Origin: Gammaproteobacteria bacterium
GTDB taxonomy: Bacteria; Pseudomonadota; Gammaproteobacteria; Pseudomonadales; Azotimanducaceae
DNA: 64,000 nt
NCBI GenBank assembly: GCA_026707945.1
Contig: JAPOVV010000115.1
Location: forward strand, 62,001-126,000
Reading direction: 5' to 3'
Position numbers and translations under genes: made by a program. Under the pieces are notes generated by a model. That model searched no databases and was not told where the DNA came from. It was given only the letters and a program-made list of their open reading frames with translations. Of this stretch, positions 7,029-15,963 are shown piece after piece (position 1 is the first letter of the stretch; every line of letters begins with the position of its first letter).

Positions 7029-7655
7029 ATGAGACATCAAAAGAGTGGACGTCATCTGAACCGGACATCAGCACATCGCAAAGCGATGCTGTCGAATATG
7101 TCAGCGTCTTTGATCGAGCACGAAACGATCAAGACCACGGTGGTCAAGGCGAAGGAGCTCCGAAGGTTCGTTGAGCCATTGATCACGTTGAGCAAGACCG
7201 ATTCGGTTGCGAATCGACGTCGCGCCTTTGCGAAACTCCGCAATAAAGCGGCCGTTGGCAAGTTGTTTACAGAGCTTGGTCCAAGGTATATCGATCGACC
7301 TGGCGGCTACACGAGGATTCTGAAAGCTGGATATCGGCAAGGCGATTCCGCAATGGTGGCTTACATGCAGCTGATGGATCAACCTGAACAAACGGTTGAA
7401 CAAGCACCGGAGCCGTTACTACCGGCTGCAGCTGCCGCCGAGGAAGACGAAGCGTCGGCCATCACTGACGAAACGACGAACGATTCAGAGACGACGGAGT
7501 CGCTCGAAGTTACCGACGAAGTAGAAGAAACCGAAGTTCAAGCTGAAGCAGCGACCGAAGAGGTCAGCGAGTCGTCGGAATCTGATGCGGCTGAGACAAG
7601 TGCATCAGATGAAGAATCTACCGCGGATCAAGCAGAAGATAAAAAGAAGGACTAA
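7029..7655 (+). CDS. rplQ: 50S ribosomal protein L17 with long acidic tail
   Basis: The conserved L17 core is complete: [20 protein letters not shown] at the start, then LITLSKTD, and [20 protein letters not shown] near residue 110. L17 is normally about 120-130 residues. This one is 208, and residues from about 120 on form a low-complexity tail dominated by E, D, A, S and T that ends in DKKKD. The tail is in frame with no break and is presumably disordered. Related tails occur on L17 in some bacteria, but its role is unknown to me. It is the last gene of the alpha operon and converges on uvrA. Confidence 0.95.
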
Positions 7656-7682: not shown

Positions 7683-10550
7683 TTAACCTGCGGCTTGGTT
7701 GAGTTCGACTCGACCCAAGATTGTTTTCAGAAACTGCCCCGTATAGGACTGCTCGAATCCAGATAGCTGTTCTGGCGTTCCTGCTGCTACGACCTCGCCA
7801 CCAGCCGATCCTCCTTCCGGTCCAAGGTCGATCACCCAGTCCGCAGTCTTAATGACATCTAGATTGTGTTCAATCACCACCACGGTGTTGCCTCGGTCGC
7901 GCAAGCGCTGTAAGACATCGAGCAAGTGTTGGATGTCGTAGAAATGCAGTCCAGTGGTTGGTTCGTCCAGGATGTACAGCGTCCGACCTGTATCGGTTTT
8001 CGAGAGTTCACGCGCTAGCTTGACGCGCTGAGCTTCGCCACCAGAGAGCGTTGTTGCACTCTGACCCAAACGGATATAGGACAGACCCACATCTTGGAGG
8101 GTTTGTAGTTTCTTGTGGATAGCCGGGATCGCGGAGAAGAACTCAGAGGCTTCTTCGACGTCCATATCCAGCACATCGTGGATATTTTTGCCTTTGTACC
8201 GGACTTCCAATGTTTCGCGATTGTATCGTTTGCCTTCGCAGACATCGCACTGGACGTAGACATCGGGTAGGAAGTGCATTTCGACCTTAATCAGACCATC
8301 GCCTCGACAAGCTTCACATCGACCACCTTTGACGTTAAAGCTGAAACGACCTGGCTTGTAGCCTCGAGCGCGAGCCTCTTGGGTACGCGAGAATAGATCG
8401 CGAATTGGTCCGAACATCTGCGTGTAGGTTGCCGGATTTGACCGTGGTGTTCTACCGATTGGACTTTGGTCGATCTCAACAACCTTATCCAGGTGCTTCA
8501 GCCCGGTACAGCTGTCATATTGTTTTGGTACGTGCGTCGTTGCCTTGTTCAACTCCCTCGCAGTAATGGGATAGAGCGTTTGATTGACGAATGTCGATTT
8601 TCCTGAGCCTGATACACCCGTCACACACGTAAACAATCCGAGCGGAATCTCCACGTTGATTTTCTTGAGGTTGTTGCCACTTGCTTCCGTTACCGTCAGT
8701 AATCGCTTTGGATTTACTGGCGTCCGCGTGGTCGGGACTTCAATTTCGCGACGACCGGCCAGATAGTCTCCGGTGATCGACTCCGGGGTCCGTTTGACTT
8801 GGTCGATCGTTCCTTGTGCAACGATGAAACCGCCATGTACCCCTGCGCCTGGACCAATGTCCACGATGTGGTCGGCGGTGTGAATTGCCTCTTCATCGTG
8901 CTCGACGATGATCACTGTATTACCGATGTCCCGCAGATGGCAAAGGGTTCGCAGTAATCGACCGTTATCTCGTTGGTGAAGTCCGATCGAAGGTTCGTCC
9001 AAGATATACATGACCCCGACGAGGCCAGCGCCGATCTGACTTGCTAGGCGAATGCGTTGCGCTTCGCCGCCAGAAAGCGTTCCGGCACTGCGATTCAAGG
9101 TGAGATAGGTCAATCCAACGTCGTTCAAGAATCGCAGTCTTGCGCGAATGTCAATCAGGATCTTTTCACTGATAATCTTCCGTTGCCCTTTGAATTCGAG
9201 CGTGTTGAAGTAATCGAGGGCGTCGTGAATGGAATATGCGGTGATTTGATCAATGTTCTGATCTCCGATGAACACGTTCCGAGCTTCTTCTCGCAGGCGT
9301 GAGCCACCGCATTCTGAACATGGTGAATTCGACATGAGTGCGGCAAGATGTTCGCGGATGCCTTCGGAACTCGTTTCGTGCATCCGCCTTTTCAACATCG
9401 GCAACACGCCTTCGAATTTAAAGACTCGCTTAATGACGCGACCGTTCCGAAGTTTGAAGCTGAAATCAATCTTCTCGCCGCCAGAACCATGAAGGATGAT
9501 GTTCTGGTGATCTTTTTTAAGCCTGCTCCAGGGCCGATCGACATCAAACCCGTAGTGTTCGCTGAGTCGTTGGAACATGTGAAAGTAATGGCGCGTATTT
9601 CGACTCCAACCCATACAAGCGCCTTCGGCAAGGGAGAGGGATGCGTCGATGATCACTCGATCCGCCGAGAAACTCTGCTCGGTTCCGAGTCCGTCGCAGC
9701 TACTACATGCGCCATGTGGACTGTTAAAGGAGAACATCCGTGGTTCAAGTTCGACGATGGAGTATCCACACTTGGGACAGGCGTAGCGGTTCGAGTAGAC
9801 GGTCTCAGGAATGGTGTCGGTTTCATCCATACCAACGAGGAGTGCCCTACCTTCACTAAGTTCTAGGGCGGTTTCAAAGCTCTCCGCCAATCGTTGTTGG
9901 TTTTCAGGCCGGATAACGAAACGATCGACCACCGCTTCGATGGTGTGTTTCCGATTCTTATGGAGCTTAGGTTTGGTATCTAACTCAGCGACGATTCCAT
10001 CGATCCGAGCCCGAACATAGCCGGCTGCGGCGAGTTCGGCGAACACGTGCTCATGTTCGCCTTTCCGATCCTCAATGACTGGCGCGAGCACCATGGCACG
10101 GGTACCTTCCGGGAATGCCAACGCATGATCCACCATTTCAGATATCGTCTGTGCGTCGAGCTTGTTACCGTGTGTAGGGCAACGTGGTTCGCCAACCCGC
10201 GCATAGAGTAGGCGAAGATAGTCATAGATTTCAGTGATCGTACCGACGGTTGAGCGGGGATTGTGGGATGTTGCCTTTTGTTCGATCGAAATCGCTGGCG
10301 AAAGGCCGTCAATGTGGTCGACATCGGGTTTGCCCATCATCGATAAGAACTGACGCGCGTATGCGGATAGCGATTCGACATAGCGGCGCTGCCCTTCGGC
10401 GTATAGCGTATCGAAAGCGAGTGAGGACTTGCCTGAGCCAGACAGACCCGTAACGACGATCAGTTTGTCACGGGGAAGGTCAACATCGACATTTTGTAGG
10501 TTGTGGGTTCGCGCGCCGCGAACAGCAATCGTATCGTGACTAGATGTCAT
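7683..10550 (-). CDS. uvrA: Excinuclease ABC subunit A
   Basis: The 955-residue damage-recognition ATPase of nucleotide excision repair has two ABC modules. Walker A motifs are GLSGSGKSS (first) and GVSGSGKST (second), and signatures are [16 protein letters not shown] and [15 protein letters not shown]. Zinc-finger cysteine pairs occur in [15 protein letters not shown] and in [14 protein letters not shown] with CDVCEGKRY. The frame is open to 10631, but ATG 10550 is chosen because it gives the normal start [19 protein letters not shown]. It is divergent from the alkyltransferase-TetR gene, with about 200 bases between. Confidence 0.97.
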
Positions 10551-10689
10551 GTGGGATCTCAACGCGTAACCGGTAATGATAGCGTTTAGGTACGACGGGA
10601 GGAGATAGACCAATCGTGTTTGGATAAACATGAGTGTGTCTCACGAGGATTCGGAATGGGTTTAGCGCGTGGTTCTACGCCGCGAATGG

Positions 10690-10740
10690 TTGCATAGTAA
10701 CTAAATATCTACTAGAATAAGCGTTCAGTAACTAAACGAT
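10690..10740 (+). promoter_or_regulatory. Promoter with embedded AGTAACTAAA repeats, candidate operator
   Basis: TTGCAT at 10690-10695 and TAGAAT at 10713-10718 are separated by exactly 17 bases and make a plausible sigma-70 promoter for the gene at 10752. Two identical decamers AGTAACTAAA lie at 10696-10705, filling the start of the spacer, and at 10727-10736, around the expected transcription start. They are 31 bases apart, about three helical turns. A third copy lies inside the gene at 10865-10874, and an inverted TAGTTACTT at 10961-10969. The core TAGTNACTA is nearly palindromic. Autoregulation by the TetR part of the downstream protein is inference. Confidence 0.5.
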
Positions 10741-10751
10741 TACCTTTCATT

Positions 10752-11759
10752 ATGGTTTACGCTGCCGGATATCAGTCTCCTTTCGGTCCGCTGACGTTAT
10801 TTGCGTCGGATAAAGGATTGGTTGCTGTGGCCTTTAACGATCCTTCCTACGCAGGACGTGATATAGTAACTAAAGAGTGCGTTTTAAATCCTCAAGCATT
10901 TCCTACCGGCCCTATACAGCAGGATGAATCTAGGTTTACGAGTGTTTTTAGTGAACTAGATAGTTACTTTAATGGATCTCTGAATTCATTCGAGACCCCA
11001 CTCGACTATACACATCATGGTACGGCGTTCCAACGTCGTGTTTGGGATGCGCTGAGGGAAATTCCGTATGGCTCAGTCGTCACGTACGGCGAATTAGCCG
11101 AACAAATCGGCAACGCCAAAGCGGCTCGCGCTGTCGGTCTTGCGAACAACCGAAATCCGTTAGCAATTCTGGTACCTTGTCATCGAGTCATTGGCGCGAG
11201 TGGAAGATTGGTCGGTTATGCTGGGGGCTTGCCTTTTAAACGCTCGTTGCTGGACTTAGAAGGTGTAACGCTCGGTGACGATAAGGGGGAAAGTTCGCGA
11301 GATGCGATACTGCACGCAGGGACAATCGCATTTTCAAGGAGCGGTTACAAGGGTACGACCGTCGACGATATCGCGAAAGCGGCCGGGGTCAATAAGCGCA
11401 TGATCTACCATCACTTTGGTTCAAAGCGCGGGCTATACGACGAGGTTTTTTCTATAGTGGAAGGAGGCCACAAAGGCACTAGGACTGACGTCTTGCAGTC
11501 CAGTCCCAATATTGCAATGAGGTTGAAGATCTACCAACTTCTCGAGACGGGTACGACTTCCGATGTGTCGCTCGCAGCCGATATTGAAAGAAATGAGAAA
11601 CGAATCGCCAAGTTGAAGTCCGAAGGCCGCATGGACTCTCGATATGACACTCAGTTAGTTGCACGGCTTCTAACAATCGCGGACCAATGGAAGGCTAGTA
11701 GCGATAAACCGCATACCCGCGTGGCACCGGTCGTGAACCGACTGAAGAAAACCTTGTAA
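10752..11759 (+). CDS. O6-alkylguanine-DNA alkyltransferase fused to TetR-family regulator
   Basis: This continuous 335-residue protein joins two families. Residues about 1-172 are a methylated-DNA-protein-cysteine methyltransferase (Ogt/Ada-C type): GTAFQRRVWDALREIPYGSV, the helix-turn-helix segment ARAVGLANNRNP, and the active-site PCHRVIGASGRL with acceptor Cys143. Residues about 181-235 are a TetR helix-turn-helix with FSRSGYKGTTVDDIAKAAGV and IYHHFGSKRGLYDEVF. About 100 helical residues follow. The parts share one frame without a stop or internal start. Ada is the classic repair-plus-regulator protein but uses an AraC domain. Here a TetR domain replaces it. It is divergent from uvrA. That alkyl transfer to Cys143 modulates DNA binding is an analogy, not shown. 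Confidence 0.9.
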   Translation: MVYAAGYQSPFGPLTLFASDKGLVAVAFNDPSYAGRDIVTKECVLNPQAFPTGPIQQDESRFTSVFSELDSYFNGSLNSFETPLDYTHHGTAFQRRVWDALREIPYGSVVTYGELAEQIGNAKAARAVGLANNRNPLAILVPCHRVIGASGRLVGYAGGLPFKRSLLDLEGVTLGDDKGESSRDAILHAGTIAFSRSGYKGTTVDDIAKAAGVNKRMIYHHFGSKRGLYDEVFSIVEGGHKGTRTDVLQSSPNIAMRLKIYQLLETGTTSDVSLAADIERNEKRIAKLKSEGRMDSRYDTQLVARLLTIADQWKASSDKPHTRVAPVVNRLKKTL

Positions 11760-11769
11760 TCGGTACTAA

Positions 11770-12273
11770 CTACTCGGCAGCGGTACCTGCGTCCTGTTCG
11801 GTTTCATCTTGCTTCAGATGTCTCCGAGTCTCGTTATAGCGGCGAGGCATAGACCTACGCATGACGCGACGACGTTCATCTGGTTCCAATTTCGCCGCAA
11901 CCTCTCGCCACATCTGGTCACTACGTGCCTTCGTTGCCATGAATAGCTCGTTGAACGCTTCTTGAGCTTTGTGAAGGCGAGTCGCGTCGAATGGTTCCTC
12001 GACGGTTGCTCGGTATAGCTCGGTTTGCGCGCGTCGAAGCTCCCTTAAATGTGCGTGGATTTGCTTTCGATGCTCTTCCGTGGATGGGATCAGCTCCTGG
12101 ACACGTTCCTCTCCTAACGGACGGAGGACGCGGTCGATCGGTGCACCAGTCCAAGTCGCTACCCGATCACCGTGGAAGTGCGGACTAAACGACTTTCCAA
12201 CGAAAAAGCCGATAAAACCCAAATTTACTATGAGCGAGATAACGCAAGTAATTAGCAGCGCTTTACGACTCAT
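11770..12273 (-). CDS. Periplasmic heavy-metal sensor-like membrane-anchored protein
   Basis: The 167-residue protein has an N-terminal membrane anchor (ALLITCVISLIVNLGFIGFF) and a mostly helical, charged periplasmic region with RELRRAQTELYRATVEEPF and a METAL_RESIST/CnrX/ZraP-like pattern of paired amphipathic helices. It ends in a hydrophilic tail. The start is taken at MSRKALL (12273), which overlaps the anti-sigma stop by 11 bases, so it is translationally coupled. By context it may sense or buffer an envelope signal for the sigma factor. I see no clear histidine or cysteine metal cluster, so metal binding is uncertain. Confidence 0.7.
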   Translation of the reverse strand: MSRKALLITCVISLIVNLGFIGFFVGKSFSPHFHGDRVATWTGAPIDRVLRPLGEERVQELIPSTEEHRKQIHAHLRELRRAQTELYRATVEEPFDATRLHKAQEAFNELFMATKARSDQMWREVAAKLEPDERRRVMRRSMPRRYNETRRHLKQDETEQDAGTAAE

Positions 12274-12682
12274 CGTCCACATCTCCTGACCACGATTCGT
12301 AGTCGTAAAACGTCATATATGTCAGATCTTCGGCGAGATCGACAGGTAATTCCTGATTAGCTGCACCGAGATAGAAGCCGAAAGCGAGCGAACACGCGGC
12401 GGCAAGTGCTGGATTCCAGATTAGTCCGCGCCAGAAGCCAGTCTCTGAGCGGCGCTTGTGTGCGGCGAATCTCGACATGACCTTCTGCTCGAGACCATAA
12501 GTCTGTGGAACTACCATGACATCAACCAAGTGCTTATCGACGTCAATTTGTGCATTCAACAACGCCCGCGCCAATGCACTCTGCGCAAGCAGCACGTTTG
12601 CTTCCGCCCGCAAGTTTTCGGGCCATGCCGACAGGTTACTCCCGTGAAGGTCTAGTAGCGTTTCGAAGTTCTGTTCATTCAT
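12263..12682 (-). CDS. Probable anti-sigma factor, single-pass membrane protein
   Basis: The protein of about 139 residues starts MNEQNFETLLDLHGSNLSAW. The ATG lies 8 bases inside the end of the sigma gene, so the two are coupled. The cytoplasmic N-terminal part has the LSAWPENLRAEA pattern seen in a family of short anti-sigma proteins. One hydrophobic segment follows near residues 93-110 (NPALAAACSLAFGFYLG), then an acidic periplasmic tail. The zinc motif HxxxCxxC of classical ZAS anti-sigmas is absent. The assignment rests mainly on position and topology. Confidence 0.72.
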   Translation of the reverse strand: MNEQNFETLLDLHGSNLSAWPENLRAEANVLLAQSALARALLNAQIDVDKHLVDVMVVPQTYGLEQKVMSRFAAHKRRSETGFWRGLIWNPALAAACSLAFGFYLGAANQELPVDLAEDLTYMTFYDYESWSGDVDDES

Positions 12683-13232
12683 AGTTCTTAACCAAAATGT
12701 CGCGCAACGTGCGCCGTGCGCGACCAATCAAAGCTTGAACACCGTCCACTGTGGTATCAAGAACCCGGGCGGCATCCTGTTGAGTCCATCCTTGAACCTG
12801 ACAAAGTACGATCGCCGTACGCTGACGTTCAGGCAGTGTTCGGATAGCACTTCGCATCGCTTGTCGTTGTGCGTCGTCTTCTAAGGATTCAATGGTTGAG
12901 TCCGAGAACTCGACGCTCTCTTGAATTACTGTTCGCTTTCGGGATCGTTCTCGCCGAAACTGATCAATACATAGATTTCGTGCGATCTGATGCAGCCATG
13001 TCGTAAATTGCACGGTGTCAGGCGTCCAATTCGACGCTCGTTGCCAGAGGCGAAGGAAGGTCTCCTGTGTGATGTCTTCGGCATCACTTTGATTGCCACA
13101 CAGCCGGTAGATGAATGCGTGGATACTCAGTGTATGTCGTTGCACTAACATGGAGAATGCGGACTCATCTCTCTGCTGAACACGTTGCATGAGATACTCG
13201 TCAGAGTTGGCTTTCAACGTTGTTTGATCCAT
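12675..13232 (-). CDS. ECF-family RNA polymerase sigma factor
   Basis: The 185-residue protein has sigma region 2 (RHTLSIHAFIYRLCGNQSDA, then DITQETFLRLWQRA) and region 4 (LPERQRTAIVLCQVQGWTQQ and GVQALIGRARRTLRD), joined by a linker of about 50 residues. Regions 1 and 3 are missing, as in extracytoplasmic-function sigma factors. It directs polymerase to a stimulus-specific regulon. The downstream membrane protein is likely its anti-sigma, and the EF-hand gene lies 65 bases upstream on the same strand. The nature of the signal is not visible. Confidence 0.92.
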   Translation of the reverse strand: MDQTTLKANSDEYLMQRVQQRDESAFSMLVQRHTLSIHAFIYRLCGNQSDAEDITQETFLRLWQRASNWTPDTVQFTTWLHQIARNLCIDQFRRERSRKRTVIQESVEFSDSTIESLEDDAQRQAMRSAIRTLPERQRTAIVLCQVQGWTQQDAARVLDTTVDGVQALIGRARRTLRDILVKNYE

Positions 13233-13297
13233 CTACGATGGCAACAACTGCGTCATGCACGATTGATTCACGCCAAACCAATTCTGTCAGATCGAAT

Positions 13298-13813
13298 TTA
13301 CTGCTCGATTTTGGGTGCTTTCTTAGCAGTATCTGTCGGTTGACGAGCGGCTCGCATTTCGCTTCTGTCGAGTCTGCCGTCACCGTTCTTGTCAAGCGAA
13401 ACCAGTTCGTCGATCGGCGCGGAGATTTCAGCCTGACTTACCTGGCCATCTTGATCACTGTCGAATTCATCGAAGGACCGCCAACGTAGCGGCATACGCG
13501 CTTGACGTTGTGCCCGTTGACCGCCGGCGCGTGGCCGATCACCTGCGCGTTGTCGATCGCGAGTGCGGCCAACCCCTTCACCTGAGGCGCGCGCATTTCC
13601 GGCGGCGGCTCCCGGTCGAGTCGTAAACTCGTCCTTAGTCAGGAACCCGTCTCCATTGGTATCCATGCGGTCAAAGCGCGTTTGAATCGCGGCGCGCATA
13701 TCCTCGATCGCCAATCCCGCGACTCGGTCAATCGGCAGCGCGGGAGTCTGCGCATGCGTTATCGAGGTGACCAACAAAGCGGATGCGGCTATGCTAAGCG
13801 ACTTTAGATTCAT
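13298..13813 (-). CDS. Secreted EF-hand calcium-binding protein
   Basis: This 171-residue protein has a signal peptide (MNLKSLSIAASALLVTSITH, cleavage probable after Ala21). It has three EF-hand loops: DTNGDGFLTKDE at 51-62, DSDQDGQVSQAE at 118-129 and DKNGDGRLDRSE at 141-152, each with the ligand spacing of a canonical loop. Between the first and second loops is a G/R/A-rich segment (about 67-106). The frame is open to 13888, but ATG 13813 is preferred because it starts the signal peptide. It is co-oriented with the sigma module and may be its first gene, as a calcium-dependent periplasmic partner (inference). Confidence 0.85.
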   Translation of the reverse strand: MNLKSLSIAASALLVTSITHAQTPALPIDRVAGLAIEDMRAAIQTRFDRMDTNGDGFLTKDEFTTRPGAAAGNARASGEGVGRTRDRQRAGDRPRAGGQRAQRQARMPLRWRSFDEFDSDQDGQVSQAEISAPIDELVSLDKNGDGRLDRSEMRAARQPTDTAKKAPKIEQ

Positions 13814-14040
13814 TTCAATTCTCCGAGATGTTTTATCGTTTATACGGAACGGTTGAAAAAACCTGACGCTGCGATCGGTCGAGTTCATGGCTGTGGCACC
13901 GCATTATGTCGTTTGACTCACGAACTGCGCGTCCGAGGCACATGAGAAAAGATCTGACAAAATTGCGGTAGGCGTTTGACTATAAGCTAGTGTACCGTTT
14001 GAGGACAACTCGTTAAGAAAACACATAGATCGATCTCAAA

Positions 14041-15963
14041 GTGAATCAATTGACAGATGTAAGGACTGAATTCGGGGATACGATCGAGCATCCCACGACA
14101 CAGTTTGGCTTGCTCGGTACGCGACGACTTTTGCCGTTGTTCGTAACTCAATTTTTCGGGGCTTTTAACGATAACGTTTACAAGCAAGCGCTCTTGCTGA
14201 TCTTCGTTTTCAGCGCGATTTCACAGTCATACGACACTAACGTGCTTAATAACGTCGCGGCTGGTTTGTTCATCGTGCCGTTTTTCCTGTTCTCGGTCAC
14301 TGCAGGCGCATTAGCAGATAGCTACGACAAAGCGACCCTCGTTCGTTACATCAAGGCGATGGAGATTCTGATCGCGATTTTGGTTGCCGTGGCACTGGTC
14401 ACGCAAAACCTTATCGCAATGCTGGCGGTTTTGTTTCTTTACGGGACGCAGTCGACGTTTTTTGGACCACTCAAGTTTGCACTCTTACCGCAACAGTTGC
14501 ACGCCTCCGAACTAGTCGGCGGCAATGCGATGATCGAAATGGGAACGTTTGTCGCGATCCTTCTCGGAACCGTCGTGGGCGGAGTTCTTGGAAATTCGGA
14601 CCTACTTGGCGACATGGCTCAAGTGAATGTCTGGGTATCGATTACCGTGATCGTGACAGCGATTGTGGGATTTATCGCATGTCTGCAAATTGCGCCTGCA
14701 CCTCCAGTCCATCACGAGAAAATCAATTGGAACCCGATAACGGAGACGGTCAATCTCATCCGATTAACAATGGAAAGAAAAGCTGTGTTCCGAAGCGTCT
14801 TAGGAGTGTCGTGGTTCTGGCTGCTCGGATCGGTATTTCTGACACAAGTGCCGAACTTGACGAAGGAGTATCTCTACGGGGACGGTACCGTGGTGACAGT
14901 GTTGTTGGTCGTTTTCACTGTAGCAATTGCGATCGGTTCTCTGATTTGTGAACGGTTGAGCGGTAGAAAAATCGAAATCGGTCTGGTGCCGCTTGGTGCG
15001 CTCGGTATGAGCGTTTGGGGGATCGACGCATATTTCAGCATTCTGGCAATTGAACCCGTATCGGTACGAGGTGCTTTCGATTTCCTGGCGGCAGACGGCG
15101 TTCCGAGACTTCTGATCGACTTGGTGTTCTTGGGGATATCCGCCGGCGTCTTTGTCGTGCCGATGCAAGCGCTAATACAGAACCGGACGCCGCCAGCGAA
15201 AGTCGCACGCGTTATCGCAGGTAACAACGTGCTCAATTCTCTTGCAATCGTGTTAGGTGCGGGGATTTCGATTTTCTGGTTGACCGTACTTGACTATGGC
15301 ATCCCCTCCTTATTTCTTCTAATCGCCATTCTTACGGCGTTCGTAGCTGCTTACATCTTTGTCACCGTGCCGGAATTTGTGATGCGATTTATCGTATGGT
15401 TAGTGGGACACTCGGTGTATCGTGTAGATCACGTCGGCCTTGACAATATTCCGGATCGGGGTCCCGTCGTGCTGGTGTCAAACCACATTACGTATGTCGA
15501 TTTCATGTTGCTCGCAGGTGCCGTGCGTCGGCCACTCCGCTTCATCATGCACCGATCGTTTTATGACTTACCTGTCGTTCGATTCGTTTGTCGGGTGGGT
15601 GGCGCTGTACCGATCGCGACCAAGGAAGAGGATGAGGAGGTCTACGAAGAGGCATTCGAGAAAGTAAAGGAAGGCTTGGATAGCAACGAGATCTTTTGCA
15701 TTTTTCCGGAAGGACGTTTGACCCCGACCGGGGAAATGATGCCGTTCCAGAGAGGGATTGAGCGTATTCTGCGCGAGTCTCCCGTACCGGTCATACCGGT
15801 CGCCCTTAGTGGCCTATGGGGAAGTTACTTCTCAAAAGCGCCGAATGCTCGAAAACTACCAAAGCGTGTCCGCGTGTCGGTGGGAGAGCCTATATCGCCA
15901 GATTCGGCGACCGCGCAGTTATTAGAAGATCAAGTCCTAGCATTGCGTGGTAGTACGCGTTAG
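14041..15963 (+). CDS. LplT-like MFS transporter fused to PlsC-type acyltransferase
   Basis: This 640-residue inner-membrane protein has two parts. Residues about 15-420 form a 12-helix major facilitator domain that begins LPLFVTQFFGAFNDNVYKQA, the LplT lysophospholipid flippase signature. Residues about 430-640 are a glycerophosphate acyltransferase with NHITYVD (H482, D487) and FPEGRLTP (555-562). Family knowledge suggests lysophospholipid uptake and re-acylation. The three-part LplT-PlsC-acyl-ACP synthetase fusion is known, and here the AMP-binding ligase part is absent. The start is GTG 14041 with no strong ribosome binding site. It is the first of four tightly spaced genes. Confidence 0.88.
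   Translation: MNQLTDVRTEFGDTIEHPTTQFGLLGTRRLLPLFVTQFFGAFNDNVYKQALLLIFVFSAISQSYDTNVLNNVAAGLFIVPFFLFSVTAGALADSYDKATLVRYIKAMEILIAILVAVALVTQNLIAMLAVLFLYGTQSTFFGPLKFALLPQQLHASELVGGNAMIEMGTFVAILLGTVVGGVLGNSDLLGDMAQVNVWVSITVIVTAIVGFIACLQIAPAPPVHHEKINWNPITETVNLIRLTMERKAVFRSVLGVSWFWLLGSVFLTQVPNLTKEYLYGDGTVVTVLLVVFTVAIAIGSLICERLSGRKIEIGLVPLGALGMSVWGIDAYFSILAIEPVSVRGAFDFLAADGVPRLLIDLVFLGISAGVFVVPMQALIQNRTPPAKVARVIAGNNVLNSLAIVLGAGISIFWLTVLDYGIPSLFLLIAILTAFVAAYIFVTVPEFVMRFIVWLVGHSVYRVDHVGLDNIPDRGPVVLVSNHITYVDFMLLAGAVRRPLRFIMHRSFYDLPVVRFVCRVGGAVPIATKEEDEEVYEEAFEKVKEGLDSNEIFCIFPEGRLTPTGEMMPFQRGIERILRESPVPVIPVALSGLWGSYFSKAPNARKLPKRVRVSVGEPISPDSATAQLLEDQVLALRGSTR

Follow-up and report, generated by a model that had tools for sequence, protein, structure and literature searches.

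The fused gene and its surroundings

The window, a 64,000-nucleotide stretch of a gammaproteobacterial contig, carried at 10752..11759 on the plus strand a gene of 335 codons with no internal stops, which the reading frame, Pfam matches and orthologues together identify as an ogt-tetR fusion. Residues 1-172 (10752..11267, plus strand) made up the Ogt half, with Methyltransf_1N at residues 3-86 (9.6e-14), DNA_binding_1 at residues 92-172 (1.7e-35), both over the curated Pfam cut-offs, and the acceptor Cys143 within the motif PCHRV. A TetR helix-turn-helix followed at about residues 183-232 (11298..11447, plus strand), supported by dN/dS and by a TetR_N match at residues 186-232 (3e-16, 59.3 bits against a cut-off of 24), and the rest of the protein (11448..11756, plus strand) was a shortened TetR C-terminal domain with a KPxxR-type tail, as judged from an AlphaFold2 model, length comparisons and the tail motif. 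Read from its sequence, the gene encodes a complete predicted O6-alkylguanine-DNA alkyltransferase and a TetR domain in one intact open reading frame. The first-pass annotation had described an uninterrupted 335-residue frame with an Ogt domain bearing Cys143 and then a TetR helix-turn-helix, which the reading frame and Pfam confirmed, and its view of an Ada-like design with a different DNA-binding domain was upheld, the helix-turn-helix being TetR_N. The PCHRV motif was present in all six fusion genes found. The nearest solved relative of the Ogt half by sequence was the Ogt of M. tuberculosis, and the NCBIfam Ada model also matched this half, with a score under its cut-off.

Identity among four fused proteins was 83-88% in the Ogt C domain and 82-88% in the TetR helix-turn-helix, dropping to 30-60% in the 10-residue linker. 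For both halves dN/dS was 0.03-0.08 in the calculable pairs, most pairs being saturated at synonymous sites, and these ratios point to purifying selection that acts on the Ogt half and the TetR half alike. A pseudogene was rejected on the strength of the intact orthologues and this selection.

The C domain is the usual sensor of a TetR protein, and helices 8 and 9 usually form its dimer. In the AlphaFold2 model of the fusion, helices 5-7 were present with no counterpart of helices 8-9; the one unfused relative modelled did have helices 8-10. The stretch from the recognition helix to the tail was 99 residues long in five fused proteins and 108 in that of genome G006, and 111-151 residues long in the 15 unfused TetRs compared, so that the fused proteins were the shortest of the 21. 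Because the modelled C domain is without the usual dimer helices, dimeric DNA binding by the fusion is not assured.

Upstream, uvrA (7683..10631, minus strand) is divergent and has a common upstream gap with the fusion; its orthologues start 23-27 codons later than the uvrA call in the window. Near this start, at about 10565-10585, lies a stretch like GTAACCGGTAATGATAGCG, seen with variations in all six fusion genomes, that may be the uvrA promoter. The bL17 protein encoded at 7029-7655 is 208 amino acids long with an acidic C-terminal tail; it measures 207-217 amino acids in the other five fusion genomes and 127-128 in five genomes of the genus that have a plain ogt (L036, L040, L054, L056 and L057). 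Downstream, an ECF sigma factor, a putative anti-sigma factor, a metal-resistance-like gene and an EF-hand gene occupy 11770-13888, a set that, among the loci compared, stands near ogt at many from the genus and at some from the family, and a 640-amino-acid reading frame at 14041-15963 combines MFS transporter and acyltransferase domains.

Distribution of the fusion and alkyltransferase content

In the 58 genomes comprising the window genome and its relatives, the intact fusion was found in the window genome, G016, G001, G010 and G006, as single reading frames of 335, 335, 335 and 343 amino acids in the last four, whose copies were 52-75% identical to that of the window. In G017 the frame of the fusion was broken near residue 80, within the N-terminal half of Ogt and away from the junction. 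All six fusion loci adjoin rplQ and uvrA; downstream, five have metal-resistance-like, anti-sigma and ECF genes, and G006 has an EF-hand gene and then the contig end. A search with the TetR half at E 0.001 yielded nothing in eleven of the remaining 12 genomes of the same genus; the twelfth, G013, has ogt and tetR as separate tandem genes.

An assembly or frameshift artefact that joins two genes, a concern already voiced in the first-pass annotation, is so improbable as to be negligible. The source genomes are metagenome-assembled and the frame in G017 is broken, but five copies are intact, the other four differ from the window copy to the extent given above, both halves are under selection and the operator places described below are fixed. 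The recurrence of single-frame fusions at one and the same place in G016, G001, G010 and G006 rules out a frameshift artefact for practical purposes.

Wider searches placed the fusion in the window genus only. A sample of 390 genomes of the order held at least three fusions, all from that genus, among the matches listed, which were sorted by E-value, an order that would place any full-length fusion first. With the junction stretch as query, no fusion except that of the window genome was found in samples of the class (369 genomes) and the phylum (398 genomes); the seven other matches were to the Ogt part alone, save one in G1250 that continued across two stops. On plasmids (PLSDB), none of the 184 matching records reached 80% query coverage, and in a species-wide scan with the TetR half the fused loci among the best 80 of 282 were L122-L126 only, from the same five genomes. 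All of these searches suit fusions of similar Ogt and TetR parts, and fusions of unlike parts could escape them. The five named loci come from metagenome-assembled Gammaproteobacteria or Pseudomonadales, and the isolate codes of the fusion genomes resemble those of what we take to be sponge projects. From these sequences the fusion is real, conserved, rare and, as sampled, confined to one genus. That it might be a common architecture was rejected as far as the order, class, phylum, plasmid and species-wide searches reach: outside the genus, none of the genomes sampled had it. No report of an Ogt-TetR domain pair or of its operator was found among the literature matches listed. Contrary to what the first-pass annotation supposed, the TetR half is not new: an unfused group of such TetRs lies behind ogt in 11 genera among the family members examined.

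The methyl-sensor domain Ada_Zn_binding had no match in any of the six fusion genomes, of which G001 is 78% complete; it was found in four of the 12 other genomes of the genus and in eight of nine other genomes of the family that had been picked as TetR carriers. Loss of Ada as the cause of the fusion was unsupported, as eight of the 12 fusion-free members of the genus are also without Ada. Each fusion genome encoded two PF01035 proteins, one being the fusion and the other a short alkyltransferase-like protein in which Trp replaces the acceptor Cys in all six (PWHRV in five, PWYRV in G006), so that no alkyltransferase other than the fusion was seen to have the cysteine in these genomes.

Operator-like repeats and the unfused relatives

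Two operator-like inverted repeats precede the fusion gene: O1, AGTAACTAAATATCTACT, at 10696..10713 and O2, AGTAACTAAACGATTACC, at 10727..10744, starting at -56 and -25 relative to the start codon. Both are 18-bp repeats of the form AGTAA-N8-TTACT, and the pair, spaced by 31 bp (30 bp in G006), was found upstream of all six fusion genes. O1 had invariant arm columns in the six genomes; in the 64-column alignment from O1 to O2 the four five-base arms held 17 of the 19 invariant columns, and in the distant G006 both repeats were perfect in these arms. The consensus AGTAACT-N4-AGTTACT was derived from unfused tetR loci, and scoring the fusion promoters against it is therefore an independent test. 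By this measure the window genome's O1 and O2 had two and three mismatches, respectively, and equally good two-site sets turned up 0 to 6 times per 20,000 Markov shuffles, depending on the genome. Among 62 upstream regions in the window, the gap between the fusion and uvrA alone scored well, with five mismatches over two sites and ten for the next best, and nine ogt genes without TetR from the same genus had 11-14. A consensus scan of the gap in the window gave no sigma-70 promoter, and promoter consensus scans in general were uninformative. The position of O1 and O2 is repressor-like, and a TetR protein bound there would be expected to block transcription. The earlier guess that the protein binds the region 10690-10740 fits well with the sequence, as this region holds O1 and most of O2.

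Two further candidate operators lie inside the gene. O3 (10865..10882) has a perfect left arm, and TAGTAACTAA at 10864-10873 was invariant in the six genomes; O4, GTGAACTAGATAGTTACT (10951..10968), has a perfect right arm, and AGTTACTT (10962-10969) within its region was likewise invariant in all six. Across the six genomes, no other invariant run within the gene's first 240 bases was as long as these two, which are operator arms. For the five intact genes, the 10-base run was matched by none of 2000 synonymous shuffles, and the presence of the ten-base motif at the same place in all five was reproduced in none of 10,000 synonymous trials. Of the 13 conserved columns of four- and six-fold codons in this stretch of 240 bases, four were identical, and three of the four (V39, T40 and S71) belong to operator arms. 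O3 was first identified as a copy of the motif and O4 was spotted post hoc. Judged by these codon patterns, O3 and O4 are operator-like sequences under strong synonymous constraint.

Relatives of the TetR half occur unfused beside ogt. We took 27 TetR loci, selected because they resemble the TetR half or lie close to ogt, and 24 of them fell into one group (21 beside ogt and three not). In the 21 tandem loci, which come from ten further genera in the family, with G013 representing the window genus, tetR follows ogt on the same strand after a gap of 28 to 1416 bp. Ahead of the tandem ogt there was an Ada-AlkA gene at 11 loci, the AlkA part alone at eight and neither at two; one Ada-AlkA gene comprised Ada_Zn_binding, HTH_18 and AlkA_N by Pfam. 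A cluster of alkA or adaA-alkA, ogt and tetR recurs at L027-L032 and L098-L117, often with convergent EPSP-synthase-family and syd genes after it. Among the literature matches listed, none described an autoregulatory TetR that accompanies alkA/ogt in this family.

Every one of the 24 group tetR genes had at least one AGTAACT-N4-AGTTACT site with three or fewer mismatches near its start, and 23 had a second (G013 has a single site); the three TetRs outside the group had no site with fewer than six mismatches. The 21 tandem loci had 39 sites with two or fewer mismatches, and every one fell either in the ogt-tetR gap or at the start of tetR, L029 having 3-mismatch sites only. The spacing of the sites was 22-23, 31-33, 43-44 or 53 bp in 15 of the 23 pairs, close to whole helical turns as judged by eye, and spacings of 56, 77, 79 and 108 were off them. 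A site with two or fewer mismatches also stood near the tetR start in six of 65 TetRs outside the group that came from the species-wide scan (L132, L149, L152, L169, L184 and L201), so the operator type extends beyond this family. At L134, L158, L160, L163, L164, L181 and L183, a tetR of alphaproteobacterial type has a similar site directly 3' instead. A KPRxR-type C-terminal tail, a motif that was defined after inspection of the linked and fused TetRs, was found in 23 of 23 linked, five of six fused and none of 68 other TetRs.

In a tree of 97 TetRs, which omitted the truncated L030 and included 65 outside rows with their long N ends trimmed, the six fused TetRs formed a single clade (100/98) that stood amid the ogt-linked TetRs and had as its sister (100/91) the unfused TetR from G013, a genome of the same genus. 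The wider ogt-linked group was weakly supported (89/83 for 26 rows), and three linked rows fell outside it with other TetRs. By this phylogeny the TetR half derives from the ogt-linked group. The Ogt half stood apart from both the ogt of the tandem pairs and the plain ogt of the genus, in a weakly supported placement from a tree with long branches that included 17 of the 21 linked ogt genes and omitted G017. A simple read-through of an ancestral ogt-tetR pair was unsupported, the Ogt half not being grouped with linked ogt. Operator distances ahead of the fusion resemble those ahead of unfused tetR, and we infer that an ogt inserted in frame behind a tetR promoter is the better fit for the origin of the gene.

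Probable autoregulation, possible damage control and comparable systems

At E 0.001, TetR_N matches numbered three in G000, two in G010 and one each in G016, G001, G017 and G006, the fusion being the sole match in the last four (G001 at 78% completeness). No TetR-family protein other than the fusion was found in four of the six fusion genomes, which makes it a very probable autoregulator; this candidate reader, the array sites and the conserved helix-turn-helix together make autoregulation very likely. A model of the O1-O2 array, with up to 150 candidates scored per genome, recovered the genome's own site in each of the six fusion genomes; beyond these there were three marginal matches (E 0.16-0.88), in G016, G010 and G007, and, in G006, the same site on the opposite strand. 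Exact AGTAA-N8-TTACT sites were not enriched over a reversed control. Sites with two or fewer mismatches fell at tetR in 18 of 19 cases in eleven genomes outside the genus, picked as TetR carriers, and seven genomes of the genus had four, at tetR in G013, in the fusion (O4) in G016 and elsewhere in G000 and G006; for sites as weak as those of the O1-O2 pair, a genome-wide search would be swamped by chance matches. Neither the exact pattern, the sites with two or fewer mismatches nor the array model revealed a wider regulon; the regulon appears to be a single locus. Co-control of uvrA by the fusion is possible, because the two genes have a common upstream gap.

We give an even chance to a model in which a single-use repair enzyme is the repressor of its own gene and alkylation lifts the repression. 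Undamaged fusion protein would bind O1 and O2 through its TetR domain and keep expression low, probably assisted by O3 and O4 inside the gene. Transfer of an alkyl group from DNA to Cys143 would spend the protein, and loss or misfolding of the Ogt domain would free the operators and allow the gene to refill the repair pool. The first-pass annotation had likewise proposed that DNA binding by the TetR domain might change once Cys143 is alkylated. The binding, its repressive sign and the release by alkylation are all inferred here, and the release has a parallel in passages of PMC10779285, which describe alkylation as destabilising and opening AGT proteins and report a lower melting point for S. 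solfataricus AGT once alkylated. Since the usual dimer helices appear trimmed in the model of the fusion, the Ogt half might supply dimer contacts; it may, speculatively, have taken these over, in which case its opening would dissolve the DNA-bound dimer. Since the same molecule would both repair and repress, each repaired lesion would remove one repressor, and we tentatively propose an Ada-independent inducible alkylation response in which the repair enzyme is its own gauge and the refill is proportional to damage.

Autoregulation need not involve damage sensing, because the unfused TetRs of the group have the same operators without an Ogt domain. The TetR half might simply hold the Ogt level constant, much as the unfused TetRs seem to hold their own, with alkylation having no direct effect on binding, an explanation that we consider possible though rather unlikely. 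The operators at the start of the unfused group tetR genes, the placement of all 39 sites at the tandem loci and the apparent single-locus regulon speak for it. Fusion to a suicide enzyme, however, would itself couple loss of the repressor to repair if the spent protein is unstable, and the short linker of about 10 residues and the shrunken C domain, the usual sensor, also argue against it.

In the usual TetR mode, the domain would sense a small molecule, perhaps a natural product from the environment that is alkylating or halogenated, with Ogt as co-regulated cargo, but a C domain that is the shortest of the 21 compared leaves scant room for a ligand pocket, and we regard this as improbable. 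Still less probable is an Ada-like activator, with alkylation strengthening binding and switching transcription on. Most TetR proteins are repressors, O1 and O2 at -56 and -25 are in a repressor-like place, and the fusion has no Ada_Zn domain; the fusion genomes are also without the Ada sensor domain, which would favour an activator, as would the precedent of E. coli Ada in the passages of PMC10779285 that treat it. On the Ada-like reading of the first-pass annotation, then, the sign has to be revised: damage-lifted repression seems likelier than activation.

Like E. coli Ada as portrayed in those same passages (PMC10779285), the fusion joins an O6-alkylguanine transferase and a DNA-binding regulator in one polypeptide. 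It differs from Ada in having no phosphotriester-sensing Zn domain (Ada_Zn_binding), in a helix-turn-helix of TetR_N rather than AraC type, in carrying Ogt at the N end and the regulator at the C end where Ada has its Ogt at the C end, and in its repressor-like operator places. It would be Ada-like in logic, yet it does not have Ada's defining features, and its sign is probably opposite. Compared with bacterial Ogt (M. tuberculosis, 4bhb/4wx9), the catalytic half is standard by sequence and fold, and a regulator is added. E. coli Ogt is expressed constitutively according to a passage of PMC10779285, which elsewhere mentions fusions of AGT with EndoV and histone-like AGT fusions; these resemble the present protein in that an alkyltransferase is joined to another domain, but the partners described there are not transcription regulators. 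With the unfused ogt-linked TetRs the fusion has in common its recognition helix, operators, KPRxR-type tail and near position in the tree, but those TetRs are separate proteins with operators between ogt and tetR, not ahead of ogt.

BirA and PutA are enzymes that repress their own genes, and the fusion would be a new case of this known enzyme-regulator type, with the difference that its enzyme would be spent in one turnover, so that the pools of activity and of repressor are the same molecules. Ada is the textbook example of a repair protein signalling its own damage. The unfused relatives suggest that the alkA/ogt genes of the family are accompanied by an autoregulatory TetR, and the fusion would offer a simple, testable circuit of one protein. 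If the proposed model is true, the unrelated regulator and the probably opposite sign would mean that self-reporting logic evolved twice.
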